The notes under the pieces were generated by a model that ran no database searches, had not been told where the DNA came from, and saw nothing but the letters and a program-made list of their open reading frames with translations. Below, one piece after another: positions 8,131 through 55,585 of a stretch of 64,000 nt of DNA. This stretch comes from Bacteroidales bacterium (GTDB lineage: Bacteria > Bacteroidota > Bacteroidia > Bacteroidales > JAIOZK01), in NCBI GenBank assembly GCA_021740625.1, contig JAIOZK010000009.1, forward strand, positions 62,001 to 126,000, written 5' to 3'. The position numbers and the translations under genes are program-made. The number at the start of each line of letters is the position of its first letter. Positions within the stretch are counted from its first letter, which is position 1.

Positions 8131-8176
8131 AAATAACAAATAACAAATAGATATTTGGTGCTTGCTATTTGGAATC
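8131..8176. repeat. Third copy of the intergenic repeat, with hairpin between convergent genes
   Basis: Contains CAAATA-GA-TATTTG (8144-8157), a perfect 6-bp stem, next to TATTTGGTGCTTGCTATTTG, which matches the copy at about 7254. It lies between the convergent methyltransferase and epimerase genes and overlaps the end of the latter. It may act as a bidirectional transcription end. Confidence 0.5.
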
Positions 8177-16730: not shown

Positions 16731-16762
16731 CAGTGCAAATTTGATAAAAAAAACAAAGCGAT

Positions 16763-33626: not shown

Positions 33627-33659
33627 AAACCTGTCAGGTTTTAAAAACCTGACAGGTTT
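33627..33659. terminator. Strong inverted repeat AAACCTGTCAGG.../...CCTGACAGGTTT
   Basis: A near-perfect 16-bp stem. It ends transcription from both sides in principle. The minus-strand T9SS gene terminates inside it: the stop codon is at 33641-33643, and the residues NLSGF before it are encoded by the repeat arm. Confidence 0.8.
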
Positions 33660-34906
33660 AACTTGACCAGCCTTAGTATTCCTTTATTTCTTTGTTGCTT
33701 GATAACAATGAAATAAATGCCAGGCAGATAATCTTTTCCTGAAATCCTTATAATATTATTACCCTTTTGTCCTTGATGATTTTTCATCGCCAGCATGCTA
33801 CCCGATTGATCATATATCATAACCTGACAAGTCCCTTCTTTCGACAATTTAAGTTCAAGGGAAACAAAATCCTGGAAGGGATTGGGCCAGGCCCTTAGCT
33901 GAATAGCAGGTATATTTTGTAAATCATGCTCCTGCACCGATACCGGAAAAGAAGCATCAAACCTGATAAAGGCCCCATCCCTCCCAACACCATAGCCGTG
34001 TAGTGAGTCCGGAAAACACATATCAAAGATCTCAAGGGAATCGGGCGTCGGTACGGGGGTCCAGCTCTGACCTGCATCAAAACTGACGATCAGTTTCCTC
34101 TGCGGTCCCAGGGGGCACCATGCCTCATATGCAATGCGGAAATCGATATCATAGGCATTTCCCTGTATGCCCGGCTCATTATATTCCCAGCTTTGCGCAC
34201 CGTCGGTCGTTTCTATGGTAGCCATGCCATAGGCAAAGTCGGGATCGCCTCCGGCGCCCAGAGCATGAAGAGAATCGAAAATATGAATGCCATGCACCTC
34301 ATCGGCCGGGGCATATTGCGGTTCTATGGCTGTCCAGTTCTCTCCTCCATTGTTTGTATGCCATATTACTCCGGCAATATCAAAGATCCCCCCGGTGGCA
34401 TACCCCACATTTTCATTCAGGAATTTTACCTCCAAAACCGGAAAGAAAGCAAGGGTGCTGGTATCGATATTCGCCTGCTGCCAAGAATTTCCTCCATCGT
34501 TGGTTTTTACCAGGGCATGAGGACTGCCGCCCATCCAACCGTTCAGGGAGTCCTGGAAAAGGATGCAGTTCATGAAAATATCGTTTTCGGGGTATGGCTG
34601 TTGCAACCAGTTGTTGCCTCCGTCTGTCGTTTTCAGGATCACGGTCCCGAATGGCTGCCCGGTATAATTGATGGCTGTGGCCCAGCCCAGTTCCCGGTTC
34701 AGGAAGAAGATATCGGAAATGCGGTTGTCGTTGCCGCTGTTTTGCTGTATCCAGTCCTCCCCCCCATCCATGGTATGCAGTATAGTTCCCGAATCCCCGG
34801 CGATCCATCCGTACAGGCTGTCGGTGAAATACACGGATCTCAGGTATTGTTCAGTGGGGACTTCCACAGCTTCCCAGGGTCCTTGCGCAAAGGAAATATG
34901 CGCCAA
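33641..34906 (-). CDS. T9SS-secreted YCF48/BNR-like propeller protein
   Basis: 421 aa from the TTG at 34906, but the true start is probably 42-45 nt upstream. In frame from 34951 comes IIRFRKISVIAGFVLLAHIS-FAQ, a normal signal peptide, and an AGGAGG sits at 34963-34958. The only codons at a proper distance are ATC (34951) and ATT (34948), not ATG/GTG/TTG. Repeats such as GWIAGDSGTILHTMDGGEDW and GWMGGSPHALVKTNDGGNSW form a propeller. A sorting domain (RAWPNPFQDFVSLEL ... YLPGIYFIVI) ends the protein, with five extra residues from the terminator repeat. Function unknown. Confidence 0.82.
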   Translation of the reverse strand: MAHISFAQGPWEAVEVPTEQYLRSVYFTDSLYGWIAGDSGTILHTMDGGEDWIQQNSGNDNRISDIFFLNRELGWATAINYTGQPFGTVILKTTDGGNNWLQQPYPENDIFMNCILFQDSLNGWMGGSPHALVKTNDGGNSWQQANIDTSTLAFFPVLEVKFLNENVGYATGGIFDIAGVIWHTNNGGENWTAIEPQYAPADEVHGIHIFDSLHALGAGGDPDFAYGMATIETTDGAQSWEYNEPGIQGNAYDIDFRIAYEAWCPLGPQRKLIVSFDAGQSWTPVPTPDSLEIFDMCFPDSLHGYGVGRDGAFIRFDASFPVSVQEHDLQNIPAIQLRAWPNPFQDFVSLELKLSKEGTCQVMIYDQSGSMLAMKNHQGQKGNNIIRISGKDYLPGIYFIVIKQQRNKGILRLVKLNLSGF

Positions 34907-35072: not shown

Positions 35073-35081
35073 TTTGTTTAA

Positions 35082-35100
35082 TATGTATGAACATATGAAC
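35082..35100 (+). promoter_or_regulatory. Candidate GntR operator (TATGAACATATG core)
   Basis: The 12-mer TATGAACATATG at 35086-35097 occurs in the same orientation and a similar distance after the -7 box as in the susC promoter. It is self-overlapping (TATGAACA repeated) and partly palindromic. Binding by the GntR regulator encoded at 37431 is inference. Confidence 0.55.
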
Positions 35101-35127
35101 AAAGTATTAATCACAAAAATTCATCAA

Positions 35128-35976
35128 ATGAAAAGAATCTTTACATTACCAAAAGAAATTACAACAAAAAATGCAGTGATGCCAACACTGGCGATACTGT
35201 TGGTTTCCTTCCTCTTTTTCGTGGGATGTTATGAATGGAGAAACATTTTCCAGCCGGAGGAGGTTGCGGTGAACAGCTATTTTGATGTTTGGCTTTCGGC
35301 CCATGATGATGGCAATCCCGACAATGACTGGACCAATCCCGACAACCACGACATAGGTCTGTTTGGTGTTATGTTGCCCGATGGCTGGACGGTTCAGGAC
35401 AGCATTCCCTATTTCATCAAAACAACTGAACCGGGTTATGATAATAATGGAATTGTCATTCACAATGATGAACATTCGCAAACGCTAACGGACTCCATAC
35501 CACCACCTCCAGGTTATTACTGGTGGGGAGCCAAAACAGATGGAGAGGCAAGCCTGGTATATTTTGACAGCCTCTACCTTGAGCCCAGGATTTTTACCAA
35601 TGATCAGACCGGTAACTTCGCCCTGCGGTATGCCATCGGAGATGAAGATTACTGGGATAGAAATCCAGCGGATGATGTCAGCGATCCCATCCCAATCACG
35701 GTTTATGATCCTACGGGTAAAAAAGAGATCTTTGCCGAAACCAATATCTCTATTTACCCCAATCCGGCGGTTGAATATTTCACTGTAAATTTCGAAAATT
35801 ATCTGAACCAGGTGATAGAGCTAAGCATTACCGATATGACCGGGAAAACAGTAATGGTGAAAAAACTTTACCAGAACAAGAATCAAATTCAGATCGGTGA
35901 TTTGACCCGGGGTATGTATTTCATCAATCTGCAAAGTGGTTCTGATAAGATCACCAAAAAGATCATTGTAAAATAA
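35128..35976 (+). CDS. T9SS-type secreted protein, DUF4961-like (tentative)
   Basis: 282 aa from the ATG at 35128 (MKRIFTLPKEITTKN). The frame is open from 35074, but that start lies in the promoter/operator. A hydrophobic segment ending LLVSFLFFVGC suggests a lipoprotein or signal peptide. The middle (about residues 60-180) is an Ig-like region with GLFGVMLPDGWTV and a proline-rich SIPPPPGYYWWG. The last 80 residues are a T9SS sorting domain (ISIYPNPAVEYFTVNF ... LTRGMYFINL). The N-terminal family assignment is a weak recollection. Its operator matches that of susC, so it is likely induced with the mannoside locus as a surface binding protein. Confidence 0.75.
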   Translation: MKRIFTLPKEITTKNAVMPTLAILLVSFLFFVGCYEWRNIFQPEEVAVNSYFDVWLSAHDDGNPDNDWTNPDNHDIGLFGVMLPDGWTVQDSIPYFIKTTEPGYDNNGIVIHNDEHSQTLTDSIPPPPGYYWWGAKTDGEASLVYFDSLYLEPRIFTNDQTGNFALRYAIGDEDYWDRNPADDVSDPIPITVYDPTGKKEIFAETNISIYPNPAVEYFTVNFENYLNQVIELSITDMTGKTVMVKKLYQNKNQIQIGDLTRGMYFINLQSGSDKITKKIIVK

Positions 35977-36074: not shown

Positions 36075-37418
36075 ATGACATCAACACCTCTCTCCAAGAT
36101 TTTTCTGAGCAGCCTGTTTATCATTCATTTCTTTGTGCTAAAGGCACAGGTCCATGAAGATGATTATTTTAACGAGCTCTTCCGTTCGCCTTGCGGTGGA
36201 TGGATTGCAGGTGATGCCACTTATTCCATTGAGCTTCCGGATGACAAAACACTATGGCTCTTCGGAGACAGCTTTATCGGAACTGCCATGCCCGATAGTT
36301 CCATTGCCCTTGGTGCCCACATGATCAGGAACTGTGCTGTCCTGCAGCATGGGGATTCACTGCAGGCTTTCTTCAACGGAACATTTGAAGACCCGGAAGA
36401 CTTTGTACTGACCCCCCAGCCGGATTCGTCCTGGTTCTGGCCCGAACATGGTATTCTGGAAAACGACACCCTTAAAATCTTCATGTCGGAATTCATCGAG
36501 GGCGAAGGCGCACCTGGCTGGAACTTTGAATATCATAATGCATACCTGGTTTATTTTACCTATCCCGGAATTGAACTGACTAAAATGGAACTCATTCCTT
36601 ATTACCAGCAAAACGAGGTGCGATACGGAAACCAGGTATTGGCGGGTGAAAACTACAACTATATTTACGGACGAAAAAGCTTGAGTGGAAATGTTCCGTA
36701 CATTCACATTGCCAGAGTACCGGTGGGAAATCTTGGAGTTGACTGGGAGTTTTATGACGGAAGCTCATGGACAAATGATGCCAGTCAGTCGGCCAGGATC
36801 AGCTTTGAAAGCGTTTCACAGCAGTATGCGGTGTTCAGTCACCAGGACAAATATGTCCTGCTCACCCAACAGATCTGGCTGGGAGCCGAAATCTATACCC
36901 TCACCGCTGATCAGCCGGAAGGCCCCTGGGATAACAAACAGCATGTTTATACCACTCCTTACCCTTTCCCTGATATGTTTACTTACAACGCCTTCGCCCA
37001 CCCCCAGTTCAATGAAAACAACGAATTGCTTGTTTCCTATAACTCCAACGGAGATTTCTGGGAAATCTTCAAAAACGTGGAACTTTACCGGCCAAAGTTC
37101 ATCCGGATACCTTTTGAGTTGATAGACACAAGCTTTGTGAATACACTTGCTGAACCAATATATGATGAAATGCTTATCAGCGGGATCAGGAACATTCCAA
37201 ATCCTGCAGGCAAAGAAACCCGCATAAGCTTTAATCTGAGAGAGAAAGTTTTTATCAGTTTGCATCTTTATAACAGCCAGGGTGTTGAATTAAATACATT
37301 TATCAATCAAAGCCTGCCAGCCGGGAAACACAGTTTCATTTTAAATTTACGAAATTTGCCACCTGGGATTTATCATTACAGGCTTAAGGATAAAAGCAGC
37401 ACATTGATTCATTATTAG
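36075..37418 (+). CDS. Secreted five-bladed-propeller-like protein (DUF4185/DUF5005-like) with short T9SS domain
   Basis: 447 aa with a signal peptide (FFVLKAQ). The body shares many segments with the lipoprotein at 39017-40144. LWLFGDSFIG matches VWIFGDTFLG, and both have SSWFWPEHG/SLWYWPGDG, YNYIYGR/YTYIYGA, FYDGSSWTND/FYTGESWVND, and a C-terminal YRPKFIRIPFELI/YRPVFIRVPLELI. They are therefore paralogs, probably glycoside-binding or glycoside-active propellers. This copy adds about 75 residues resembling a T9SS sorting domain (NIPNPAGKETRISF ... LPPGIYHYRL). Its stop is 12 nt before the GntR gene, so they are probably co-transcribed. Confidence 0.78.
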   Translation: MTSTPLSKIFLSSLFIIHFFVLKAQVHEDDYFNELFRSPCGGWIAGDATYSIELPDDKTLWLFGDSFIGTAMPDSSIALGAHMIRNCAVLQHGDSLQAFFNGTFEDPEDFVLTPQPDSSWFWPEHGILENDTLKIFMSEFIEGEGAPGWNFEYHNAYLVYFTYPGIELTKMELIPYYQQNEVRYGNQVLAGENYNYIYGRKSLSGNVPYIHIARVPVGNLGVDWEFYDGSSWTNDASQSARISFESVSQQYAVFSHQDKYVLLTQQIWLGAEIYTLTADQPEGPWDNKQHVYTTPYPFPDMFTYNAFAHPQFNENNELLVSYNSNGDFWEIFKNVELYRPKFIRIPFELIDTSFVNTLAEPIYDEMLISGIRNIPNPAGKETRISFNLREKVFISLHLYNSQGVELNTFINQSLPAGKHSFILNLRNLPPGIYHYRLKDKSSTLIHY

Positions 37419-37430
37419 AAAGCAAGTAAG

Positions 37431-38171
37431 ATGTCGAAGCGATTAACAGTAAATCACAACAGCCCGGTTCCCCTGCATGCCCAGTTGGAATCAAAGCTGC
37501 GTGAACTGATTGACAATGCAGAATTCAAACAAAACGAATTCCTGCCCAATGAGGTGAATCTCGCCAAACAACTTGGCATTTCGAGGAATACCGTCCGGCA
37601 GGCCATAAACAAACTGGTTTACGACGGATTGCTGATCAGGAAAAAAGGGGTGGGAACCCAGGTGGCGGACCGAAGTGTGAATACGAAGATCCAGAACTGG
37701 CTGAGCTTTTCACAAGAGATGAAAGCCAAGGGTATACATATCAAGAATTTTGCAATTTCGATTGACTGGGTGGAAGCAGACAAAGATGTGGCAGCTTTTT
37801 TCAACATCAAAACGGGCAGTAAGATCCTGAGAATGGAAAGGATCAGGGGCAAGGAAGATTTTCCTTTTGTATATTTTGTTTCCTTCTTCCATCCAAGGAT
37901 AGGCCTGACCGGCAAAGAGGATTTTTCACGTCCCCTATATGATATCCTGGAAAAAGATTATTCAGTTGTGGTAAAGCTTTCCAAAGAAGAGATCAGCGCC
38001 GCCAATGCAGATGCTGACATTGCCGAAAAGCTGGATATGAAGAAAGGAGCTGCTGTTCTGAAACGTAAACGTTTCGTGTTCGATCCGGGCGGAAGACCTG
38101 TGGAATATAACCTCGGCACTTACAGAGCGGACAGCTTCGTATACACCATTGAAAGTGAACGCAAAGTCTGA
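37431..38171 (+). CDS. GntR-family transcriptional regulator with UTRA ligand domain (HutC type)
   Basis: 246 aa. The N-terminal winged helix (about residues 10-75) has LPNEVNLAKQLGISRNTVRQAI and LIRKKGVGTQV. The UTRA domain (about 95-240) has ILRMERIRGKEDFPFVY and VEYNLGTYRADSFVYTIE. Members bind sugar phosphates or related metabolites and usually repress nearby sugar operons. It is encoded convergently with the eight-gene mannoside operon, 12 nt from its end. The shared palindromic motif at the susC and 35.1-kb promoters is its likely operator. Mannose-6-phosphate is a plausible effector, but that is inference. Confidence 0.93.
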   Translation: MSKRLTVNHNSPVPLHAQLESKLRELIDNAEFKQNEFLPNEVNLAKQLGISRNTVRQAINKLVYDGLLIRKKGVGTQVADRSVNTKIQNWLSFSQEMKAKGIHIKNFAISIDWVEADKDVAAFFNIKTGSKILRMERIRGKEDFPFVYFVSFFHPRIGLTGKEDFSRPLYDILEKDYSVVVKLSKEEISAANADADIAEKLDMKKGAAVLKRKRFVFDPGGRPVEYNLGTYRADSFVYTIESERKV

Positions 38172-38183
38172 AGACATTTATCA

Positions 38184-39020
38184 TTACTTCCGAATAGATT
38201 CCCGGAAAAATTCAAAATGTTCATCGATTTCCCGTCGCCAGTAATCGCTGTTGTGAGCACCCGGTCCTTCCGAAAAAATATGTCTGATGTCGTATTTCCT
38301 GCAGGAATCTACAAATCGCAAATTGGTATCGTAAAAAGGATCCTCTGTACCACAACTCACAAGAATTGCTTTATCCGTGGCTGATATTTTCCCCAGGTTT
38401 CCCATGACCGAATATTTCCTGAGCACGGATCCTTCACGTATCTTTTCTTCATCCAGCCCCAGGACCCTTTCAAGTGCATAATGATTTTTCCATGCTTCAA
38501 ATTGCAATAGTCCGCTGATACTCCCGGCACTTTTAAACTTTCCGGGATGCTGCGCAAAAAGATATAGTGCTCCATGCCCGCCCATGCTAAGGCCTGTGAT
38601 GAAAACAGTTTCAGGATTGACATGATAATTTTCCATCACAAATGGGTAAAGATCCTGGAAGAAAAAATCCCGGTACTGGTTTTCACTTTTCACCGGACTG
38701 TTTATATACCATGAGTCATACAAACCGTCGGGGCAAACAATGATCCATCCATACCGATCAGCATAATCCTGGCAATCGATCATCAGATCCCAATGGCGGT
38801 AATTGCCGCTCCAGCCATGCAAAAGAAATATAAGGGGGTATTTGCCATCCGGCGTATTTTCAGTAGAGGCAGGGGTGAAAATCCAGACCGTATCCGCCTG
38901 ATCCAGATACACTGATTGAAAAACCTCCTGATCCTGAGCTGGCATATCAAGACTTATGAAGAGCAAAGCAGCAAAGCAAAACAAGAATATCTTATACAAA
39001 GATTTCATAACACGCATCAT
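38184..39020 (-). CDS. Secreted alpha/beta-hydrolase esterase (esterase D / CE1-like)
   Basis: 278 aa with a signal peptide (FISLDMPAQ). It has the oxyanion-hole FLLHGWSGN, nucleophile elbow GLSMGGHGA, an acidic residue in CGTEDPFYDT and the catalytic histidine in GPGAHNSDYW. It resembles feruloyl/acetyl-xylan esterase-type enzymes that remove acyl groups from glycans. It is the last gene of the mannoside operon, with its ATG overlapping the previous stop (ATGA), so it probably deacylates the incoming mannoside. ATG codons at 39020, 39017 and 39008 are alternative starts. Confidence 0.9.
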   Translation of the reverse strand: MMRVMKSLYKIFLFCFAALLFISLDMPAQDQEVFQSVYLDQADTVWIFTPASTENTPDGKYPLIFLLHGWSGNYRHWDLMIDCQDYADRYGWIIVCPDGLYDSWYINSPVKSENQYRDFFFQDLYPFVMENYHVNPETVFITGLSMGGHGALYLFAQHPGKFKSAGSISGLLQFEAWKNHYALERVLGLDEEKIREGSVLRKYSVMGNLGKISATDKAILVSCGTEDPFYDTNLRFVDSCRKYDIRHIFSEGPGAHNSDYWRREIDEHFEFFRESIRK

Positions 39021-40144
39021 TCAAGAATAAGCTCAAGCGGCACACGGATAAAAACCGGGCGGTATTTGCTGGCATCTTCGAAAAGGTCCTGCAGCTTAAA
39101 ACTGTTCACACAATACGACACCAGCAGTTCATCATTTTTAATAAAGTATGGATGAGCCACCGGATTGTAGGCAAAAAGATCTTTTTCAGGTTTCAGGGGT
39201 TTCAGCTTATACAATTCCTTTTTGTTTTCCCAACCTGTGTAAGGAAGGTCTGATACTGCAGAATAAAGGCTGCTTTCCAGAAAGTCGCCCGACTGTGTTA
39301 ATAGAACAAATTTGTCTCTCAGCCTGATCACACTGAATTGTTCAGAACCTTTCCAGTCGGTCATGGGTTTTGCCTTGCGGGAATCATTCACCCAGCTTTC
39401 GCCCGTATAGAATTCCCAGCCGGCCATGACATCACCTTTTGGCGCCCTGGCCACATAAGGGTATTTTTCACCGGCACCATAAATGTAAGTGTAATCAGGG
39501 GCTTCATCACAAAGGGCGTGACCCCAGTGAATCTCCACTTCCCCGGGATAGTCAAAATGTTCGATTTTTTCAAGTTTGATATCCGGCAAAGAAAAAACAG
39601 CCAGGTTGGCGCTCACCCAGCGGAATCCCCAGTTTCCTTCTTCAGCCTGGTAAAATGCGCTCATAAAAACCTTGAGTTTCCCGTTTTCAATAAATCCGTC
39701 TCCCGGCCAGTACCATAATGAATCTTCCGAAAACTCTGTTCCCCTCACAGCATCCGGCGGGATGACCAGGGAAGATTCCCAGCCGTCGATGACATTGTAC
39801 AGGGTTTGCAATGAATCTCCATCCTGCACAGCAAAGGCATTGCGTATAAAGACAGGGCTTCTTTTCTCACGGCTCCCATCCGGCTCAACCTCTCCCAGAA
39901 AGGTGTCTCCGAATATCCAGACCACTCGCCCATCGGGAAGGGGTACCGAGTAAAAGCCATCGGCACCGGTCATGCCGCAACAATCCCGGGCGAAGAAACT
40001 GGTGAATTCCTGGTCCACATAAACCGAATCTGCCTGCTTTGCCTTTTCTGATCTCTGTTCCCTTGCCTGATTGCATGAAAATAGCAAAATGAGTGGGATC
40101 AACATTAACAGCTTATAAAGCGAATTGTATATTTTCATTGGCAT
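39017..40144 (-). CDS. Lipoprotein with five-bladed-propeller-like domain (DUF4185/DUF5005-like)
   Basis: 375 aa with the lipobox ILLFSCNQ (Cys near residue 24). The protein starts its domain with CCGMTGADGFYSVPLPDGR and VWIFGDTFLGEV and ends YRPVFIRVPLELILE. It is a paralog of the secreted protein at 36075-37418 without the sorting domain. The lipid anchor would keep it on the cell surface or in the periplasm next to SusCD. Its activity is unknown; propellers of this kind occur beside glycan-degrading enzymes. It lies in the operon 9 nt after the GH92 gene. Confidence 0.82.
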   Translation of the reverse strand: MPMKIYNSLYKLLMLIPLILLFSCNQAREQRSEKAKQADSVYVDQEFTSFFARDCCGMTGADGFYSVPLPDGRVVWIFGDTFLGEVEPDGSREKRSPVFIRNAFAVQDGDSLQTLYNVIDGWESSLVIPPDAVRGTEFSEDSLWYWPGDGFIENGKLKVFMSAFYQAEEGNWGFRWVSANLAVFSLPDIKLEKIEHFDYPGEVEIHWGHALCDEAPDYTYIYGAGEKYPYVARAPKGDVMAGWEFYTGESWVNDSRKAKPMTDWKGSEQFSVIRLRDKFVLLTQSGDFLESSLYSAVSDLPYTGWENKKELYKLKPLKPEKDLFAYNPVAHPYFIKNDELLVSYCVNSFKLQDLFEDASKYRPVFIRVPLELILE

Positions 40145-40153
40145 AGGTTTTTA

Positions 40154-43100
40154 TTACTGTACATATTTTTCGATCAGGCTTTTCCACAGCAGGTAACCTT
40201 CACCATTGATGTGCAGGCCGTCGAGGCTGTATTTTGTATCCAGGATGCCCTGATCATTTTCAAAAGAAGTATACAAATCGATGTAAACCAGCCCCTTTTC
40301 TGCAGCAAGCTCATTCAGCCCCCTGTTGATTTTCATGATATCATCATTGCTTCGGTCGGGATAAAAGCCATCATCGGTTGGCAAAACACTTTGAAGGTAA
40401 ATCTTTGTTTCCGGAGATTCCTCCATGATTCTTTCAATGATCTTCCTGTAATTACTGAGGATAACATCTACCGTTTTTCCATAGGCCAGGTCGTTGGTTC
40501 CGATCATGATAAAGATCTTTTCCGGCCTGGAAGAAGTCACCTCATCAAGCCTTTCCAGGACGCCATCGGTATCGTCGCCGCCAACACCCCGGTTTTTGAT
40601 GTTCGGGTTCCCGAACAGCTCGGCCCAGTTACAATTATCGGTAAGGCTGTTGCCCAGGAAAATGATCTCACCCTCTGTATCGGGCAGGCTTTCAAAGTGT
40701 GATTTTTTATGATGGTAATATGCTTTCATTCCCAGGTTCCACCTTTTCATATCTTCTTCAAATTTATCATAAGCCATGATCTCTGCAATTTCTTTTTCAG
40801 ATAAAATTTTACTCATGGAAGGGGGTGCATCCTCCGGATCACTGCCCCATGCTTTATTGGGTTCCGGACCCATTTGCAAAATCAATTTGCCCCCGTCTAC
40901 CAGTTGATCATGATAGAACCAGGGTTTGTCAAGGGGTTTCCCGTCCAGTTCGGCCCATTGAATATATTTGTTTTCGAAAGAAACATCTTTTGCTTCGATC
41001 ACAAATTTATCCCCGGGGTAATAATCGGCATCCAGGTGAATGGTAATCTTTTCAAAGATGGGGCTGCCGATCTCATAAACGGGATCAACAGCAGCTCCAC
41101 CATCCATCTGGAACAATCCCATGGCGCTCATCACGTACCAGGCTCCCATTTGTCCCTGGTCTTCATCCCCCGGCCAGGCATATATATCATCGCCGTAATA
41201 TTCATACAGGATCTCCCGCACCCACTTTTGTGTAAGCCAGGGTGCACCTGCATAATTGAAAAGATAAGCTGCCTGCATATTGGGCTGGTTCCCGTGATTG
41301 ATGGGCAATATCCCAACCCCGATCAGGCCATTTTCATGCAGGTGTTCCGAATTGAAGCGGTGGGGTTTTGATTTCTCAAATCCCGCTTCCAAACGGGTAA
41401 TATACTCATCTTTCCCGAGTAAATTCAACAAACCCTGTTGGTCATGCGGGACAAACCAGGTATATTGCCAGGCATTGCCTTCTACAAATCCCGGACCCAG
41501 AAAAACGGAATGCCCGTAAGGAGAAAAGTCCTCCCTCCAGCTTCCGTCGGCATTTTTCATCCAAACATACTTCAGATCTTCGTTAAAGACATTTTTATAA
41601 TTGAAAGCTCTTCTGGTGAAAGTCTTGTAATCCGACACCTTTCCCAGGGCTTTTGCGAATTGTCCCAGGCACCAGTCATCATATGCATACTCAAGAGTAT
41701 TGGAAACAGGACCTTCTTCGTTGGGGACATAACCCAGCTTCATATACGAAGCCAGGTGTCTGTTCCCAACCATTCCACCTCCTTCGTGAAGTTGTCCCTG
41801 TGTAGTTTGTATATGTTTGATAGCCTGATAGGCCTTATCAACATCAAAATCCCTGATCCCTTTTTGATAAGCACTCACGATCAGGGGAATTTCATGTGAT
41901 GCTACCATGATACTTGAATATTCTATCCCGGTAGGGCCTTTTGGCAGCCAGCCTCCTTTGTCATAGATCTCCAGCAGCGAACGCACCCAGTTACCGGCAA
42001 TTTTTGGCTGGGAAAGTGTCCAGAGCTGGTTCAGGTTCCAGAAGGTATTCCAGAAGGCATCGCCCCCGTATACAGGAGAATCGGGATCGTCAAGTTGCTG
42101 AACTTTTTCATACATATCCACATATTTCCCGTTAACATCGCTCCAGATGGTCCGGCCGCAATAAGCCCGGTACATATTGGTGTAGAATTTTTTGTAGTCC
42201 GTTTCACTGCCTCCTTCCACTTCGATGCTGCTGAGCAGTTTGTTCCAGGTATCCTGGTTCTCTTTTACTGCCCGGTCAAAATCCCAGTCGAAGGGGTCTA
42301 ATTCCGTTTCCAGGTTCAGGCGGGCCTGTTCAATGCTCACCAGGGATATTCCACTCTGGACAAGGATTTGCTCACCTTCTGTGGTCTCAAAACTCACAAA
42401 AGCACCTGTGTCATTGTCACCAAAGATGTTCCATACATCATCTGTATCCATATGTATTTCATCATGCACCCAGCCGTTAAAGCTTTCAAAGTCTTTGTTA
42501 AAGCGTATCACAAAATGCAGGGTAAACTGGTTGTAGTTTGCACCCCGCATACTTTGTTGCACCGAAAAACCTTCAATCTCCCTGTTTGAAACTTTTGTGA
42601 TCCTGGCTTCGAATATCTCATATCCATATTCGGTGGGGATCTTCAGATCGATCAGCACCCTGGCTTCGTCAGATTCCGGGAAGGTATAACGCTGGAAACC
42701 TGCCCGAATGCTGGAGGTCAGTTCAGCCTTGATATTGTAATCTTCAAGGAAAACGGAATAATATGAAGCTTCTGCAATTTCATTATCATGAGAAAAACGG
42801 GAACGGTACCCCAGGTCCGGATCTTTCTCTGTTCCGGGAGCAATGTGCAAGGGTCCTGTGGCCGGCATGGTGAGCAATCCGCCCATGGTCCAGGAATGCA
42901 AATGGCTGAAACCGGCGATGTTATGAATTTTATATTCATAACCTGCCTTCCAGCCTTTGCGCTGATTATCAGGGCTTAACTTTACCATTCCAAAAGGCAT
43001 GGTAACGCCCGGGAACAATATCCATCGCGAAAAGGTGGTACCCATCATGGGATCGACATAATCCACAGGCCTTTTCGATGGTTTCTGAGGATGGGCCATG

Positions 43101-43168
43101 GAAATTGATCCGGCCAAAACCAGCAGGATCATAAAATGTTTCAGTTGTATTATGGTATATTTCTTCAT
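40154..43168 (-). CDS. GH92 alpha-mannosidase fused to a C-terminal SGNH/GDSL esterase
   Basis: 1004 aa with a signal peptide (to about residue 28). Residues about 35-770 are a GH92 exo-alpha-mannosidase: DYVDPMMGT, FPGVTMPFGMVKLSPD, GFSHLHSWTMGG, TLEYAYDDWCLGQ, and DEDQGQMGAWYVMSAMG, which carries the catalytic base region. These calcium-dependent enzymes release terminal alpha-mannose. Residues about 835-1004 are an SGNH hydrolase: IIFLGNSLTD (nucleophile Ser), GVGGDD, MIGTNDLA and DGLHINGEGY (Asp/His). One secreted protein would thus deacylate and trim mannosides. It sits between the kinase and the propeller lipoprotein in the operon with gaps of about 10 nt. Confidence 0.94.
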   Translation of the reverse strand: MKKYTIIQLKHFMILLVLAGSISMAHPQKPSKRPVDYVDPMMGTTFSRWILFPGVTMPFGMVKLSPDNQRKGWKAGYEYKIHNIAGFSHLHSWTMGGLLTMPATGPLHIAPGTEKDPDLGYRSRFSHDNEIAEASYYSVFLEDYNIKAELTSSIRAGFQRYTFPESDEARVLIDLKIPTEYGYEIFEARITKVSNREIEGFSVQQSMRGANYNQFTLHFVIRFNKDFESFNGWVHDEIHMDTDDVWNIFGDNDTGAFVSFETTEGEQILVQSGISLVSIEQARLNLETELDPFDWDFDRAVKENQDTWNKLLSSIEVEGGSETDYKKFYTNMYRAYCGRTIWSDVNGKYVDMYEKVQQLDDPDSPVYGGDAFWNTFWNLNQLWTLSQPKIAGNWVRSLLEIYDKGGWLPKGPTGIEYSSIMVASHEIPLIVSAYQKGIRDFDVDKAYQAIKHIQTTQGQLHEGGGMVGNRHLASYMKLGYVPNEEGPVSNTLEYAYDDWCLGQFAKALGKVSDYKTFTRRAFNYKNVFNEDLKYVWMKNADGSWREDFSPYGHSVFLGPGFVEGNAWQYTWFVPHDQQGLLNLLGKDEYITRLEAGFEKSKPHRFNSEHLHENGLIGVGILPINHGNQPNMQAAYLFNYAGAPWLTQKWVREILYEYYGDDIYAWPGDEDQGQMGAWYVMSAMGLFQMDGGAAVDPVYEIGSPIFEKITIHLDADYYPGDKFVIEAKDVSFENKYIQWAELDGKPLDKPWFYHDQLVDGGKLILQMGPEPNKAWGSDPEDAPPSMSKILSEKEIAEIMAYDKFEEDMKRWNLGMKAYYHHKKSHFESLPDTEGEIIFLGNSLTDNCNWAELFGNPNIKNRGVGGDDTDGVLERLDEVTSSRPEKIFIMIGTNDLAYGKTVDVILSNYRKIIERIMEESPETKIYLQSVLPTDDGFYPDRSNDDIMKINRGLNELAAEKGLVYIDLYTSFENDQGILDTKYSLDGLHINGEGYLLWKSLIEKYVQ

Positions 43169-43178
43169 GCTAAAAATT

Positions 43179-44282
43179 TTATTTCATCATTTCCAGTGCA
43201 AATGCATACGCCCCCAGGGCAACTGCCCTGCTTGCTCCAAGTTTTGAAACACCAATCCCCGTTCGCTGGTCGGCATCATATGATATTTTCCTTTCACTTC
43301 CAGGAACGCTGAGCACTTTGATCTTGCCCAGGGCAAACTGTTTAAATTCCTTCTGCTCCTCCAGGTTATACACTTTGAAAGGAAGTCTTTTAAATTCATT
43401 GCCCCTGAAATCCTGCAATCTCCGGTTCAGCTCCCCGAACATGCTTTCGGAGAACAGATCCCAGGCTGCAGTAATGCCGCCGCCCAGAACAACAATACCA
43501 TCGATCAGGGTGCTGATGTTGGCAATGGAACTACCCAATGCTTCGCCAAAAGCCCGGAAAGATTCCTTTGCAGCCTGTTGATCTCCTTCTTTCTTTCCCG
43601 CAGCGATATCATGGATATCTTTGGGCATCAGGTTTTCATCAAAAGCATGTCCACTGGCTTCCGCATAAACTCTTTGAATTGCGCGTGTGCTGACACTTTC
43701 TTCAGCATACCAGTTGTTGTTGTACTTATTTAAAGTTGCATGTATTCCGGCATCACAGGAATTATCACCCTTCAGCAAGCGCTTTGAATCCGTTACGATA
43801 CCACAGCCAAAGCCAGTTCCCAGGGTCAGGCCGACCAGGTTGTTAAACTGCTTGATACCACCCTTTTGTCTGATCTTTTCATTCAACATGGGCAGATATC
43901 CTGAAAGGGCTTCTCCATATGCAAACAGGTTTCCGTCATTGTTGATAAAGACCGGCATTTTGAAATGATCCTCCAGCATAGGGCCCAGGGCCACACCATC
44001 TTTAAAAGCCCTGAAATTCGGCAGATCACCGATGATGCCTGCCGGGTAATCTGCGGGGCCAGGAAAGGCAAAGCTGATCCCGTCGGCCTTGCCGGGCAAT
44101 TGACTGCCCACAGCTTCAAAACCATTTATGATCGCATCCAGGCATTTGTCCAGGTCATGGGGCCAGGCTTTTTGACGGACCTCTTCCACGATCTCCCTGT
44201 TTCCCTGTATGGCAGAAAAAACAAAATTTGTCCCTCCCGCATCCAGGGTCATGATGATCCTTTTATCCTTTTCATTATCCAT
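43179..44282 (-). CDS. ROK-family sugar kinase
   Basis: 367 aa from the ATG at 44282 (MDNEKDKRIIMTLDAGGTNF). The frame continues into the permease gene and is cut here. The ATP-binding MTLDAGGTNFVF, PGPADYPAG and GLTLGTGFGCGIV match the ROK fold. The catalytic aspartate is in FINNDGNLFAYGE. The usual zinc-binding CxCGxxGC motif is absent; GDNSCDAGIHATL stands there. It probably phosphorylates mannose (or another hexose) released by the locus, giving the substrate of the neighbouring mannose-6-phosphate isomerase. Substrate identity is inferred from the operon. Confidence 0.9.
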   Translation of the reverse strand: MDNEKDKRIIMTLDAGGTNFVFSAIQGNREIVEEVRQKAWPHDLDKCLDAIINGFEAVGSQLPGKADGISFAFPGPADYPAGIIGDLPNFRAFKDGVALGPMLEDHFKMPVFINNDGNLFAYGEALSGYLPMLNEKIRQKGGIKQFNNLVGLTLGTGFGCGIVTDSKRLLKGDNSCDAGIHATLNKYNNNWYAEESVSTRAIQRVYAEASGHAFDENLMPKDIHDIAAGKKEGDQQAAKESFRAFGEALGSSIANISTLIDGIVVLGGGITAAWDLFSESMFGELNRRLQDFRGNEFKRLPFKVYNLEEQKEFKQFALGKIKVLSVPGSERKISYDADQRTGIGVSKLGASRAVALGAYAFALEMMK

Positions 44283-44289
44283 AGAGGCA

Positions 44290-45438
44290 TTATTTTTTGA
44301 CAACATAATAGGTAGCAAAAGCAACATAAAGTGTACAGAACAACAAAACAAAGATGCTTGCTGATATCCCGGCAAGATCTGTCAACACCCCTGCAATGGG
44401 TGGAACGATAGCACCACCGCAAACTGCAAGGATGATCAGCCCTGATAATTCGTTGGCATAGTCAGGTTTTCTGGCAACGATGAGTGCGAACATCAGGGGA
44501 AAGAGGTTGGAAAAACCAAATCCAGCCACAAAGATCATCACCCTGGTAAGCATAAGATCCTTGCTTAACAGTATGCCTGCCAGTCCAATGAGGGTAATGA
44601 TGGTACTGATCACCATGAACAGGCTGTTGTTGATTTTCCTGAGAAGAATAGCACCCAGAAAACGTCCGATCATCAGCGAAACAAAATAAATACTGATCCC
44701 GAAGCTTGCAGTTTCTATGCTGAGTGAGAAACGATTTTTCAGGAAGAGCGCAATGTTGGTATTCATGGTTACATCAAAACCCACCATAAAAAAAATACCG
44801 ATCACGGCAATCAGTATGAAGGGGTTTTTCAAAAGCGCGAAAACACTTTTGAGTGTTGCAGGCGGTTTGACCGATCTGGGTTCTTCTATCTTCACAGAAG
44901 CCAGCCAGGCTGCAGCCAGGAAAGAAATTACAGCGTAGATTGGAAATATCAGTTTCCAGTCGCCGGTATAGATGGCGAGACTGGCGGCAATGATGGGCCC
45001 CAGCATGGAAGCAATGGCTTTGATGAACTGGGATAAACTGAGGTTGGCCGCTTTGCTGTTTTCGGGTGAAATACCGATAAGTAAAGGATTTGCCGAAACC
45101 TGGAGGATGGTATTCCCGATCCCCAGCACTGCAAAGCCAATGATGGCTGTAGCCAGCGAATAGTAAACAAAAGGGATCAGGACACCAATCCCGGTTACGA
45201 TCATCCCGATGTTTACCGTCAGGCGTGTTCCCTTTCTGTCCTGGAACATCCCGGTGGGTATTGAAGCCAGCAGGAACCAGATAAAAACCCCGAAGGGCAG
45301 CAACTGAGCCAGGCTGTTGGGCAATTCAAAGTCCTGTTTTAAAAAGCCGGTGGCCACGCCGACCACATCCACAAAGCCCATCACGTAAAACGAAACCATG
45401 ACGGGTAAAAAATACTTCAGCGATGTTTGATTTTTCAT
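44290..45438 (-). CDS. MFS sugar permease, FHS (FucP/GlcP) type
   Basis: 382 aa with twelve predicted membrane segments. The N-terminal FYVMGFVDVVGVATGFLKQDF, LPFGVFIWFLLASIPTGMFQDRKG and LGIGNTILQVSANPLL match fucose/glucose-galactose:H+ symporters of the FHS family. It should carry the monosaccharide released by the GH92 enzyme across the inner membrane. It is sandwiched between the isomerase (19-nt gap) and the kinase (7-nt gap), which makes mannose the likely cargo. Confidence 0.92.
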   Translation of the reverse strand: MKNQTSLKYFLPVMVSFYVMGFVDVVGVATGFLKQDFELPNSLAQLLPFGVFIWFLLASIPTGMFQDRKGTRLTVNIGMIVTGIGVLIPFVYYSLATAIIGFAVLGIGNTILQVSANPLLIGISPENSKAANLSLSQFIKAIASMLGPIIAASLAIYTGDWKLIFPIYAVISFLAAAWLASVKIEEPRSVKPPATLKSVFALLKNPFILIAVIGIFFMVGFDVTMNTNIALFLKNRFSLSIETASFGISIYFVSLMIGRFLGAILLRKINNSLFMVISTIITLIGLAGILLSKDLMLTRVMIFVAGFGFSNLFPLMFALIVARKPDYANELSGLIILAVCGGAIVPPIAGVLTDLAGISASIFVLLFCTLYVAFATYYVVKK

Positions 45439-45457: not shown

Positions 45458-47230
45458 TTATGGATTTGTTCTAACATAAGCTTTGATGGTAGCGCACTCT
45501 TTTCCCAGGGATTCACCATGCGGACTGATGGTGTACCTTCCGACAGCAGCAGGGACAATGAATGTTTCTGCATAATGCACTACAAAAGGATCGAAGACAT
45601 TCCCGGGGCTTTCCACGATAATTTCCCGGCCTTCCACCAGGGTCATTACATTCACTCCTCCTCCGGTATCATGCTCTGTTTTTCCGGTAAACCAATGTCT
45701 GCGCGTTTCAATAAACTCCCTTTCATGCAGGCCGGTTCTTTCTTCTTTCCAGTGATCTCCTTCTGCCACCGTTTCAATCTTGTTGATCAGTTGCTCTTTC
45801 ACCCAGTCGGTATCCCTTTCCCACTGTATTACATTGCTGCCATGGTCGATATTGATGGGGCGGGGTTTACCGTCCAGGCCATTTCTTCCCCAATCCCAGA
45901 GTTTGAATGTAAAGATATAAGGCGTTGCGCTTATTTCCAGCACCATGGAATTTCGTCCGGAACAATGCACTGTACCGGCGGGAATCAGGAAATGATCATG
46001 TTTGCGGGCAGGCCAGTTGTTGATGTATTTTGTATCATCAAAATGAACAGCTTCTTTTTCAGATCGCTTCAGATCCCGGATCATCGCATCCGGTTCAACA
46101 TCCTTTTTCAGACCCAGGTATACCGAAGCATCTTCTCCTGCATCCATCAGGTAATAACTTTCATCCTGCGTATAATGAATTCCAAATTGTTCCTGGATAT
46201 ATTCCGTTAAGGGATGCACCTGCAAGCTCAGGTTTCCGCCTCCCATGGTATCCAGGAAATCAAAGCGGATCGGGAACTCATCACCAAATCGTGCGTGTAC
46301 CGCTTCCCCAAGCAAAGCCCTGGGCTGGAAAAAGACCACATTCCCAGAAGGGGTTTCGAATCGGACCTTCCCAAATTTGAGATAAAGACTATTCTCTTCA
46401 GGAATGCAGTTAAAACACCAGGCCGAATTTACCATAGCAGGATCCAGGTCACATACTTCTTTCATCCAGTGGCCACCCCAGGGTCCGGCATCAAAATAGG
46501 GCACTACACTAAATGGCTGTCTGGCGGTTTGCTCAAGACCGGCCTGCCATGCCTGCCTGCTGATCATCCTGGGATGGTTTCTTGTATTGGTATCCATGAC
46601 GAAATCCCATGAGGTCATGGTCTTTTTTTTCAAACGGTCACAAATCCTCCAGTCAAAGAAATACCCTCTTTTGTACAATGTTTCCAGGGAATCATGCTTA
46701 TTTGATATCCCCAGGTTGTCCACCTCATTCCTGCGCATACGCAATTGTATCTCCCACCTTGCCATATCGGCGTACACAAGAAGGTCAGGTTTTTCACAAA
46801 TAAGAGATGCACCATGCCCATAAACCAGGATGGTGCCCTGTTCAATGTCAGCAAGCTGAGATACAAAAGATTTAAGCTTATCCTGATCCATCAGATCATC
46901 CATCTTCATTCGTGTCATATATCCAAAGATCCTGTGATCCGTCACATCGGGATGGCTGATGGAACGTATTTCATTTTCCGGCAGGAAACAATTATGAGAA
47001 AGAAATGTATGATCAGGATTTACAGCTTTAATTATGCCATCCAGGAGCTCGTCATGGTAAACGCCCTGGTAGCATTCCAACACGATGACCTTCTTTTGCT
47101 TTTCGAGTTCCTCACATGCCTTCGAAAGCCTTGCAGTAATATCCTCCCAGCCTTCAAAGGCCTCCTGCTCAAACCCTTTCACCTTTACGAAAGGATCCTT
47201 GTTAAAATTAGATATTTGTTCTGTAAACAT
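45458..47230 (-). CDS. Class I mannose-6-phosphate isomerase with N-terminal extra domain
   Basis: 590 aa from the ATG at 47230, whose first base overlaps the susD stop (TGATG). The C-terminal half (about 250-590) has the type I isomerase metal-site motifs SLQVHPLTEY and IPAGTVHCSG plus YYLMDAGEDASVYLG. It interconverts mannose-6-phosphate and fructose-6-phosphate. The first 230 residues are not part of the usual 300-400 residue enzyme. IVLECYQGVYHDELLDGI and later LVYGHGASLICEK look like a P-loop kinase-like fold that has lost the Walker A GK[ST]. The extra domain may be regulatory. The enzyme closes the catabolic pathway encoded by this operon. Confidence 0.88.
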   Translation of the reverse strand: MFTEQISNFNKDPFVKVKGFEQEAFEGWEDITARLSKACEELEKQKKVIVLECYQGVYHDELLDGIIKAVNPDHTFLSHNCFLPENEIRSISHPDVTDHRIFGYMTRMKMDDLMDQDKLKSFVSQLADIEQGTILVYGHGASLICEKPDLLVYADMARWEIQLRMRRNEVDNLGISNKHDSLETLYKRGYFFDWRICDRLKKKTMTSWDFVMDTNTRNHPRMISRQAWQAGLEQTARQPFSVVPYFDAGPWGGHWMKEVCDLDPAMVNSAWCFNCIPEENSLYLKFGKVRFETPSGNVVFFQPRALLGEAVHARFGDEFPIRFDFLDTMGGGNLSLQVHPLTEYIQEQFGIHYTQDESYYLMDAGEDASVYLGLKKDVEPDAMIRDLKRSEKEAVHFDDTKYINNWPARKHDHFLIPAGTVHCSGRNSMVLEISATPYIFTFKLWDWGRNGLDGKPRPINIDHGSNVIQWERDTDWVKEQLINKIETVAEGDHWKEERTGLHEREFIETRRHWFTGKTEHDTGGGVNVMTLVEGREIIVESPGNVFDPFVVHYAETFIVPAAVGRYTISPHGESLGKECATIKAYVRTNP

Positions 47231-48672
47231 CAATAACCTGTATTTTGTGAAAGATTCGGATTGTTGTTTCGTTCACGCTGTGGTATGGGAAACAGATTAT
47301 TGAATTCCTGGGGGTTGGCTTTATCTCCTTTTGCCTCTTTCACATACTCCACAAGATTGCCAGTTCTCACAAGGTCGAACCATCGCTTGCCTTCATTCAC
47401 GAATTCATGCCTTCTTTCGGCCAGCACGGCTTTGCGAAACTCATCCTGTGTCAGGCCACTCAGGTCGGGTAGTACTCCTGTTTGCCCGTTTCTAGCTCTT
47501 TCCCTGACCTGGTTGATGGCGTCATAGGCTTCCTGGGTAGGTCCTCCATTTGCCTCATTCAGGGCTTCTGCCAGGATTAAGAGTACTTCGGAATAACGCA
47601 TCACCCAGAAGTCTGCACCGGATTCACTGGTTTCGTCCGGTTCATAAGCTTCCTGGTCCCAGTATTTCCAGATATGAGGTTCGAAAGTATCAAACCAGTA
47701 ATGATCGAAGAAAGTGACCTCATAACGGTAATCGCCTTCCTCAAAGCTGTTGAGCAGATCTTCCGTCGGCAGCATAATCTCTACCCCTGCCGGGAAAACG
47801 CCCTGTATGGAAGGCAGGCCGGAAATGACCATTTGGGAATTTTGTGAAACATCGTTGCGGTAAAACTGCACTTCAAATACGGATTCCATACCATTTTTGT
47901 TAACTTCCTTGAAGTTATCGGCATAATCGGGCCAGAGCTGGTAAACACCCAGGTTGATGGTCTGCCGGGCAAAATCGGCCGCCAGAGACCAGTTTCCAAT
48001 ATGCAGATGTACATTGGCCAGCATGGCCAGGGCAGCACCTTTGGTGGCCCTTCCTTTATTATCGCTGGTATAGTATTCCGGTAAGGACTTGCTTGCCATT
48101 TCAAGATCCGCGATGATTTTTTCGTAGACCTTTGAAGTTTCTTCCCGGAATGGGTAAAGTTCATCATCATTCATTTCGGGAGACAGGGGTTCCAGTACGA
48201 GGGGAACATCCCCAAACATCCTCACCAGGTTAAAATAAAAGATTGCTCTCAGAAAGCTTGCCTCCCCCAGTATCCTTTTGTTCAAGGTTGAATCCATGTC
48301 GATGGGAGGAACCCGGTCAAGCACAATGTTGGCCCTGCTAATGCCCAGGTAGGAAGCTTCCCACACAGCTGCAAGGTAAATATTCGTAGCATTCAGATTG
48401 TATTTATTGAATTCATGCAGATTGGGATCATTGAGCGTTGCACGGGCATTGCAGTCATCCGATGCAATGTCCTGGATCAGCCATAAGGTGCTCGAATACT
48501 GGTCGACATAAGCCAGCACATCATAAACGGCATTCACAGCATTCAATGCATCTTCCTTTGACTGATAAAAATTATCATAATAAATTTCATGAGGTTTGAT
48601 TTCCAGCTCCTTTTCGCAGGCGGTGATTGCCAGCAAAAAAGTAGCGATGAGGTATATATTTATCTTTTTCAT
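47230..48672 (-). CDS. susD: SusD/RagB-family glycan-binding lipoprotein
   Basis: 480 aa with the lipobox LLAITACEK (Cys19). The typical N-terminal region YYDNFYQSKEDALNAVNAVYDVL is followed by TPR-like helices and the C-terminal family signature RYSEVLLILAEALNEANGG, INQVRERA, LAERRHEFVNEGKRWFDLVRTG and FPIPQRERNNNPN. SusD proteins cap the SusC barrel on the cell surface and present oligosaccharides to it. It starts 11 nt after susC and overlaps the isomerase gene by 1 nt. Confidence 0.96.
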   Translation of the reverse strand: MKKINIYLIATFLLAITACEKELEIKPHEIYYDNFYQSKEDALNAVNAVYDVLAYVDQYSSTLWLIQDIASDDCNARATLNDPNLHEFNKYNLNATNIYLAAVWEASYLGISRANIVLDRVPPIDMDSTLNKRILGEASFLRAIFYFNLVRMFGDVPLVLEPLSPEMNDDELYPFREETSKVYEKIIADLEMASKSLPEYYTSDNKGRATKGAALAMLANVHLHIGNWSLAADFARQTINLGVYQLWPDYADNFKEVNKNGMESVFEVQFYRNDVSQNSQMVISGLPSIQGVFPAGVEIMLPTEDLLNSFEEGDYRYEVTFFDHYWFDTFEPHIWKYWDQEAYEPDETSESGADFWVMRYSEVLLILAEALNEANGGPTQEAYDAINQVRERARNGQTGVLPDLSGLTQDEFRKAVLAERRHEFVNEGKRWFDLVRTGNLVEYVKEAKGDKANPQEFNNLFPIPQRERNNNPNLSQNTGY

Positions 48673-48683
48673 GATCTGTTGTT

Positions 48684-51600
48684 TTAAATGTTAAGGATGA
48701 TACCGAAAGTGTATGTTTTAACTGCCGGATAAGCCCCATAATCATAGCCCATGCGGGTATTGTCTTTCCCGAAATGTCCGACCTCCGGATCAAAACCGGT
48801 ATAATCGGTAATCGTTAGCAGGTTGGTAGCTGTGAAATAGACCCTGGCACGCTGTATCTTTAAAAAGTTAAGGGCTTTGTCGGGCAGGGTATATCCAAGT
48901 GTTATGGTTTTTAACCGGATGTAAGATCCATCCTCCAGGTAACGATCGCTCATGTGCAGGTAATCGGCATCGCGATTGGCCCGGGGATATTCATTGCTCG
49001 GGTTTTCAGGGGTCCATCGGTTGAGCATGTCGACAGAAGCATTGGATAGGCCGTTGCCTGATTCCAGCTCAAAACGGTTGCTGTTCAGGATCTGGTTCCC
49101 GTGAACACCCTGGATAAAAATATTCAGGCTGAAATTCTTAAATGAAAAATCATTGCTCAGCCCCCAGGTGAAGTCCGGCAGTGCATGCCCGATGATCTTT
49201 TTGTCTTGATCGTTGATAATGCCGTCATTGTTAAGATCAACGTATTTAAAGTCTCCGGGTTCGGCACCATACATGGCTGCTTCTTCCACCTCATCCATTT
49301 GCCAGATGCCGTCGGAAACCAGGCCATAAAAACTTCCCATTTCTTCTCCTTCCCTGATTACGGACCAGTCACCAATTTTCAGTTTGTAGGTATCATTGTT
49401 GATGTAGAGGTCGCGACCCTTCAAATCCAGGATCTCATTTTTATTGGTGGAGAAGTTGAAGGAAGTATTCCACCGGAATTCACCCACAAAATTCGTTGTA
49501 TTCAGGGCAAACTCAAAACCCTTGTTTCTCATGCTCCCGATGTTCTTGATAAAAGAATCATAGCCGCTTGTCCAGGGCAGACTGAAATTATACAGCATGT
49601 CCTCGGTGGTTTTGATATAATAATCTGTTGTGATAGAAATCCTTCCCCTGAAAAATCCTATGTCAAGGCCCAGGTCGAATTGCCTGGTAGTTTCCCAGCC
49701 CAGGTTGTCGTTGCCTGGCACATCAGGTGCAAAGCCTGCCCCGGGAAAGGAATTATTGAAGTAATAAAGCGTGGGTGCCAGGGTACTAATATATCCGTAA
49801 AGCGGTATCCTGTCGTTTCCGCTGGCACCATAGCTCAGCCTGAATTTCAGGTTTGAAAAAACATTCAGCTTGCGGATAAAATCCTCTTCTGAAGCCCTCC
49901 AGGCTATGGCTGCCGCGGGAAAGAAACCATAGCGTTTATTCTTTCCAAACCTGGAGGAACCATCAACTCTTCCGGTAAGTGTCAAAAGATATTTCTCTTT
50001 CAGGTTATAATTGATCCTGCCCAGGTATGATGCCGTTGCAGATTCACTGAAAGTCGAATAAATAGTAGGCAGGTTGGTTGCATTCTCGATACCATAATAT
50101 CCCAGTATGTCGTTGGGAAATCCTGTCACGATATCAACAAATGTCCTGGAATTATCTTTTTGGAAGGTGATTCCTCCCAGTACATTGAGTTTGTGGTTCC
50201 GGCCAAACTTTTTATCATAAGTCATTGTATTCTCAAAAAGATATGTACTTACTTCAGAAGTAATAAATCGGGCCTGACCGTCATTCCAGGAGCCCGAATA
50301 AATATATCGTGGAGTATACATGTCCTGTACATTGCTGTAGTGATCGAGGCCGAAACTGCTTTTGAAATCAAGCCCACTGAGCAGGTTATACTCAAGGAAA
50401 AAATTCCCGATCAGTCTGTTGGTCTTGCTCACCGCTTCCACATCACGCGTAACTGCCACGGGGTTATCAAGCCATGCATCTGCATTGGGATCCGTCAGGG
50501 TATATTCTCCGTCTTCATCATAAACCGGAAGGATGGGACTAAAGATAAGGGCAGTGTTCACAACACCAGGGAAAAAACCACCCGGCGTACTTGTCGGGAC
50601 GGTATTGGCTTGAGTATGGGTATACATGATACTGCTGCCTATTTTTATTCTCTTACTGAGATTCCGGTCGAGATTTGCCCTGAAGGAATAACGTTTAAAA
50701 TCAGATCCATGGATGATTCCATCCTGAGAAAAATATCCGGCGCCCAGCAAATAATTGCCTTTTTCATTTCCTCCGGAAAATGATAATTGATAACTGCTGA
50801 TGGGGGCATCCCTGTATATCTCGGATTGCCAGTCGGTGCCTTTTCCGAGGGAATCAGGATTCGGGTATTTGGGCGTATAATTGGGATTTGCATTTAACCC
50901 CGCTTCATCATAGAGCCTGGCAAATTGTTCAGCATTCATCACATCGATGCTTTTGGCCTTGCTTTGAATTCCTGTATAAGCTTCAAAAGAAATCTTATCC
51001 TCACCTGCCTTCCCTCTTTTTGTTGTAATGATCACCACGCCGTTGGCTCCCCGCGCACCATATATGGCAGTAGCCGAAGCATCTTTCAGCACATCGATGG
51101 ATTCGATGTCATTCGGATTGATAGAGCTTAATCCATTTTCAGATGGAGAACCGATGAAAGAAAAATTCTTATCACCCTCCATGATCACACCATCCACCAC
51201 GTAAAGGGGTTCGGTTCCAGCCATGATGGAATTTCCACCCCTGATCTTTATGGAAGTAGCTCCCCCGGGCTGGGCAGAGAGCTGTGTTACGTTCACACCT
51301 GAGATTCTTCCCTGGATTTCCTGGTCAAAGGAATTGGAAGGTATTTCCTGCAGTTCATCTGAACTCACCGATGAAACGGAACCGGTGAGATCCCGCTTTT
51401 TGACCGTACCATATCCGATCACTACGACCTCATCCAATCCAACCTGCTGGCTTTCCATCGCCACATCCAGCACTCCTGAGGCGGGTATCTGTTTTTCAAG
51501 CGTTTTCATCCCGATGAAGGAAAAAACAAGGATTTCTGAATCACCGGGAACACTGATGCTAAATTTCCCATCCTGATCGGTTACAGTCCCCTGATCAGTG

Positions 51601-55310: not shown

Positions 55311-55585
55311 ACAGTAAAAAGTACATAAAAATAGTATTTTTACCAAGCCGTTTGAAGTATAAAAAAGCCGGCAGCCCAATACCAAAATGTTCTGAGTTTT
55401 TTTAATAAGCGGTAAGAGCATCCATTCCCTTATCCTTCCCAGATGCTATCATCACCTTGAGAAGATGTATTTAGAAGTAAGTTTTTGGAGAAAGCAATCC
55501 CATTGCAACCAATACAACATCAGAAGGAAAAGCCAATAACAGGCGAGTTGAGTTTGTCAGGCTCTGAGATCAGAAATTTTGATGA

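Follow-up and report, generated by a model that had tools for sequence, protein, structure and literature searches.

The gene at 40154–43168 on the minus strand of the 64,000-nucleotide stretch of Bacteroidales DNA analysed here (the window) encodes a single polypeptide in which a complete GH92 α-mannosidase is followed by a complete SGNH hydrolase. We read this protein, with a probability of about 0.6, as a bifunctional exo-enzyme, probably periplasmic, that belongs to a SusCD-type locus and would first deacetylate an oligosaccharide and then release α-mannose for use by the operon. Both families are already known, and their combination is new. The portions of the literature on GH92 with SGNH or GDSL domains that were accessible to us describe no such fusion, an absence that is in itself no proof of novelty.

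Architecture of the fusion protein

The gene and its parts are as follows.

40154–43168, minus strand: fusion gene (1004 aa) for a signal peptide, GH92N, GH92 catalytic domain, linker and SGNH hydrolase
43088–43168, minus strand: signal peptide-like stretch, residues 1–27, read by eye from the sequence
40865–43060, minus strand: GH92 domain, residues 37–768, with acid E563 and bases D668/D670 (Pfam and alignment)
40736–40813, minus strand: linker, residues 786–811 (gap between the Pfam and the structure-matched regions)
40157–40735, minus strand: SGNH hydrolase domain of the PvSAE type, residues 812–1004, with S841, G864, N892, D983 and H986

The first 27 residues contain no lipobox cysteine, and the protein is expected from its sequence to be exported to the periplasm. 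Pfam assigns GH92N to residues 37–275 (PF17678, E = 3e-66, 224 bits, curated cut-off 34.5), the GH92 catalytic domain to residues 281–768 (PF07971, E = 2e-152, 508.9 bits, cut-off 24.6; the match spans the full profile, 1–464 of 464) and Lipase_GDSL_2 to residues 837–992 (PF13472, E = 3.5e-27, 96.5 bits, cut-off 32.9). NCBIfam concurs on GH92, whose N-terminal β-sandwich and (α/α)6-barrel domains are both accounted for by the Pfam matches. An AlphaFold2 model built from a shallow alignment (mean pLDDT 77.5, pTM 0.74) places both domains in one chain, with residues 31–790 fitting GH92 structures and residues 818–1004 fitting PvSAE, a sialate 9-O-acetylesterase. Among solved sequence relatives, GH92 mannosidases cover residues 32–790 and PvSAE covers residues 815–1003. 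A first-pass annotation had claimed that SGNH motifs follow a complete GH92 domain in one frame; the Pfam matches and the model bear this out for two complete domains, and the three motifs it named (GNSLTD, 839–844; GTND, 890–893; DGLH, 983–986) are all part of a complete SGNH domain.

Distribution and origin of the fusion

A search of a genome collection returned 29 loci. In 12 of these (L003–L012, L027 and L030) the SGNH domain follows GH92 in the same frame, with L010 stopping at a contig end inside the SGNH part. Together with L033–L035, this makes 15 further Bacteroidota loci with the architecture, within a conserved SusC/SusD locus. The idea that the apparent fusion is an artefact of a lost stop codon, an assembly error or chance motifs has next to no chance of being right: it is refuted because these loci, from independent assemblies, carry the identical single-frame layout, and the domains are complete by both Pfam and structure matches. 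In the sampled genomes of the phylum, the fusion occurs in 4 of 395, the present one counted.

GH92 proteins without SGNH (62–68% identity) make up 16 of the 29 loci (L013–L026, L028 and L029; the 5′ part is missing in L026 and L028) and belong to Planctomycetota and Saprospirales-type Bacteroidota. The remaining locus, L031, matches the SGNH domain alone. A Rosetta-stone test by tblastn with the SGNH domain found no free SGNH gene beside the unfused GH92 genes in those loci. Planctomycetotal GH92 proteins (L014, L018, L021, L022, L025 and L029) have about 300 extra N-terminal residues and no C-terminal SGNH.

In the GH92 tree all fused proteins fall into one clade (support 100/98) along with seven unfused ones. 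This tree requires three changes, so the fusion may have been gained once and then lost twice, or it may have arisen repeatedly. The SGNH tree (198 columns) is poorly resolved and cannot decide the number of fusion events. Overall, many relatives have the fusion, a distribution that suggests that mannosidase and esterase act as a pair. The Saprospirales loci count against this pairing, since they keep SusC/SusD and the isomerase-like gene described below with a GH92 that has no SGNH domain.

The GH92 domain

Residues E563, D668 and D670 align with the general acid E533 and the base pair D642/D644 of BT3990 (residue roles: PMC10167667, PMC5930347) and are invariant in a 28-sequence family alignment. 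The modelled domain has the same fold as the Bacteroides thetaiotaomicron exo-α-mannosidases BT3990, BT2199 (α-1,2), BT3130 and BT3965 (Z 35–42 over residues 30–805; the best matches are BT2199 and BT3990, Z 40–42), with which it shares the general acid and bases at about 30% identity but not the 580-loop of the +1 subsite.

BT3990-like α-1,2-mannosidases have a +1 subsite triad of Trp88, His584 and Glu585. In a pairwise alignment W93 of the fusion protein matches a BT3990 tryptophan and the letters H-E are present, but close orthologues have DE, DA, NE or GS at this position. The pair is not conserved, and we do not assign a BT3990-type α-1,2 specificity. Because this loop varies among orthologues, we claim no linkage for the GH92 domain.

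Characterised GH92 enzymes consist of the catalytic core alone, as in BT3990, or of the core with added binding modules (PMC10167667). In NnGH92 of Neobacillus novalis (7nsn), too, the GH92 polypeptide contains further domains, namely CBM32s, a helix bundle and a CBM-like domain, but a second enzyme is not described there (PMC10167667).

The SGNH domain

The nearest solved SGNH structure is PvSAE (E = 3.5e-53), a sugar O-acetylesterase from Phocaeicola vulgatus that acts on 9-O-acetyl sialate (6njc, 7pzg); with EstA of B. fragilis it is the nearest known relative of this domain. The SGNH domain is 43–46% identical to PvSAE (Z about 24 over 185–187 residues), and the two agree in GNS block I, the catalytic triad and the oxyanion residues: Ser841 in GNSLTD, Gly864, Asn892 in GTND, and Asp983 and His986 in DGLH correspond to S52, G75, N103, D199 and H202 of PvSAE (residue roles: PMC9063846). 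All five are invariant across 15 aligned full-length fusions, the present one included, and the loss of catalytic residues that would have spoken against the fusion as an active esterase is thus not seen. As these residues are invariant despite only 59–66% identity between the SGNH domains of the other fusions and the present one, the comparison points to purifying selection on a predicted SGNH activity.

PvSAE is a dimer (PMC9063846). The fusion protein keeps the interface residues E61 and R71 as E850 and R860, and its SGNH part has a PvSAE-like N-terminal helix, so dimerisation through this domain is possible. Q31 and F28 of PvSAE are replaced by H and Y, and E58 by N, although the remaining fusions keep E at the latter position. 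In contrast to the present domain, PvSAE has no second enzyme attached.

Most members of this SGNH subfamily in the sampled genomes are free-standing proteins. In four genomes, however, the frame is longer and also encodes an apparent GH20 β-hexosaminidase (L101:9722–12355, the same gene as L073; and L079, L080 and L084; the GH20 partner is confirmed by Pfam for L101 and read by eye for the other three). Here the partner is likewise an exo-glycosidase, and the SGNH domain, 41–50% identical to the present one, precedes GH20 in three frames and follows it in one. L101 also contains a GlcNAc 2-epimerase and a SusD-like gene. Since the same subfamily is joined to GH20 too, the joining of esterase and exo-glycosidase arose more than once or was reshuffled.

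Gene neighbourhood

The fusion gene is surrounded by the following genes.

35074–35976, plus strand: T9SS-tailed protein, syntenic with the fusion in close relatives
36075–37418, plus strand: second DUF5005 protein, secreted, with a T9SS C-terminal sorting domain
37431–38171, plus strand: GntR/UTRA regulator (Pfam), syntenic with the fusion
38184–39020, minus strand: CE1-like esterase (PF00756, E = 3e-23)
39017–40144, minus strand: lipoprotein with a DUF5005 domain, a five-bladed propeller of GH183-like type in which D62 and D80 are invariant
43179–44375, minus strand: ROK family sugar kinase (Pfam), syntenic in relatives; the true start lies perhaps inside the listed ORF
44290–45438, minus strand: MFS sugar transporter, GluP/FucP/NagP-like (Pfam, NCBIfam)
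45458–47233, minus strand: 591-aa protein, conserved in the locus, in which residues 239–468 (approximate limits) form a distant type I phosphomannose isomerase domain
47230–48672, minus strand: SusD-like glycan-binding lipoprotein (Pfam)
48684–51740, minus strand: SusC-like TonB-dependent transporter (Pfam)

Adjacent SusC and SusD genes thus lie upstream of carbohydrate-active enzymes on one strand, the arrangement of a SusCD locus. The minus-strand genes run in the order SusC, SusD, isomerase-like protein, MFS transporter, ROK kinase, fusion, DUF5005 and CE1, with short gaps or overlaps; the regulator, the second DUF5005 protein and a further T9SS protein lie on the opposite strand. This order is mostly preserved in close relatives. 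A DUF5005 protein occurs downstream of the fusion or nearby in 11 of 11 informative relatives, and the CE1 gene is kept in 4 of the 11 (L004, L005, L007 and L027).

Ahead of its isomerase domain, the isomerase-like protein carries an N-terminal extension of about 240 residues; no part of the protein scores above the Pfam cut-off. For the T9SS-tailed protein at 35074–35976 the best hint is a sub-threshold CBM_21 match (E = 0.043). In a second subclade of fusions, proteins of about 775 aa are encoded directly upstream of the fusion (L009:7626–9953, L011:7642–9963, L012:7609–9930, L103:12261–14591 and L104:13115–15448). They have no convincing Pfam match, nor does the L009 copy have one in the PDB; grouped by similar length and place alone, they are possibly a new enzyme family. 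Elsewhere the window contains a polysaccharide biosynthesis cluster (8165–16790: flippase, two O-antigen ligase-like proteins, glycosyltransferase and epimerase), large BNR/YCF48 or Vps10-type propeller proteins (3836–7093, 31168–33327 and 33641–34906; two are T9SS-tailed) and two ORFs without a Pfam family above cut-off (54126–55421, 431 aa; 56552–58969, 805 aa).

The DUF5005 partner

One further genome ties the DUF5005 protein to the task of the fusion, because in L011 (positions 9962–14059, from a MAG labelled Bacteroides sp. SpSt-1244) GH92, SGNH and DUF5005 are joined in a single frame. This triple fusion comprises about 1366–1371 aa (1371 residues from stop to stop), and its SGNH part reads on into DUF5005.

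A structure model of the neighbouring DUF5005 protein (pLDDT 87) is nearest in fold to 4hbs, an uncharacterised putative hydrolase (Z 37.1), followed by the GH183 endo-D-arabinanase EndoMA1 (Z 27.6), against a GH43-like background of about 20. With the GH183 endo-D-arabinanases (DUF4185; EndoMA1 8ic1/8hhv) the DUF5005 neighbours share the five-bladed propeller and, judged by sequence spacing, a pair of aspartates. The invariant D62 and D80, putative catalytic residues, lie at a distance of 18 residues, which also separates nucleophile D33 from acid/base D51 in EndoMA1 (PMC10509167). Identity between the DUF5005 neighbour and EndoMA1 is 14%. The two DUF5005 proteins score 30.7 and 33.3 bits against the DUF4185 profile, below its cut-off of 39.5, and for this reason we do not file them as GH183, though the model suggests that DUF5005 probably acts like a GH183 enzyme.

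Proposed function and substrate

Beyond the observed architecture, intact catalytic residues, conservation and gene neighbourhood of the fusion, we infer a sequence of reactions. The SGNH domain would cleave an O-acetyl ester on the non-reducing terminal sugar of an imported oligosaccharide or on its neighbour, after which the Ca-dependent, inverting GH92 domain would free the terminal α-mannose. Acetyl is the presumed acyl group because the SGNH domain resembles PvSAE, and it would sit on or next to mannose, perhaps on the primary O-6, which chemically resembles the sialate O-9 attacked by PvSAE. The MFS transporter would import the freed mannose for phosphorylation by the ROK kinase and isomerisation by the phosphomannose isomerase-like protein; the specificities of kinase and isomerase are presumed from family membership. 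The succession of these steps is part of the proposal, as is the use of mannose as the product. With both activities in one chain, esterase and mannosidase would stay close together in a 1:1 ratio.

A close functional precedent, by analogy, is the xanthan locus of B. intestinalis, which encodes a GH92 α-mannosidase as well as a CE module that removes acetyl from xanthan oligosaccharides (PMC10881899). In that locus the fusion partner of the esterase is a polysaccharide lyase instead of GH92.

The first-pass annotation had further proposed that the fusion, together with a separate CE1-like esterase in the operon, points to an acylated mannoside as the true substrate. The CE1 gene does exist and the mannose-type catabolic genes of the operon fit this substrate, which is plausible from gene content. 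As a pointer, however, CE1 is weakened by its retention in 4 of 11 relatives, and the nearest characterised esterase acts on sialate. For these reasons, and because DUF5005 is GH183-like, the substrate may not be plain mannan. The glycan may have a non-mannose part, since DUF5005 is the more conserved partner of the two.

Several named substrates were weighed against the gene content of the genome, whose assembly is about 95% complete. Yeast-type α-mannan is disfavoured, as this assembly contains no GH76 endo-mannanase. Xanthan is disfavoured too, with only weak GH88 matches in the genome. Mycobacterial lipoarabinomannan, prompted by the GH183-like partners, finds no GH172 match and, again, no GH76; the GH172 search says little, as it found no match in any control genome either. 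Use of sialate appears unlikely because the genome contains weak BNR_2 matches and a nanA match below cut-off, that is, no convincing sialidase or NanA.

These observations bear on the view that the SGNH domain deacetylates a different sugar of the same glycan, such as an O-acetyl sialic acid or an O-acetyl sugar beside mannose; the glycan would then be a heteropolysaccharide or a glycoprotein glycan in place of an acetylated mannoside. Its identity of about 45% to a 9-O-acetyl sialate esterase speaks for this view, as do the missing GH76 and the GH183-like proteins that accompany the fusion and are joined to it in L011; we nevertheless consider it a possible but rather unlikely explanation, given that the genome lacks a nanA-level lyase and has only weak BNR_2 repeat matches, and that the operon has no sialate gene and catabolic genes that suit mannose. 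Quite improbable is a mainly structural SGNH domain that dimerises or stabilises GH92 with little catalysis. NnGH92 does need its appended domains for stability (PMC10167667), PvSAE is dimeric, and E850 and R860 are invariant in the fusions; yet structure alone would not need the five catalytic residues that are invariant in the full-length fusions.

Building on our preferred reading of a deacetylating mannosidase, we tentatively consider an undescribed O-acetylated, mannose-capped glycan, on which a GH183-like propeller glycosidase, an O-acetylesterase and an exo-α-mannosidase (one frame in L011) might act in sequence on one oligosaccharide, the SGNH module being paired with GH92 or GH20 to match the acetylated end sugar. 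This extension is doubtful in comparison with the bifunctional activity itself.

For the families concerned, the DUF5005 partner points to another, as yet uncharacterised family of GH183-like glycosidases that would act on this glycan too. The GH92 and GH20 fusions also caution against taking the name sialate O-acetylesterase literally, since SGNH proteins that bear it may have other sugars as substrates. Finally, an esterase built into an α-mannosidase predicts that some natural α-mannose is capped by acetyl and would have to be uncapped first.
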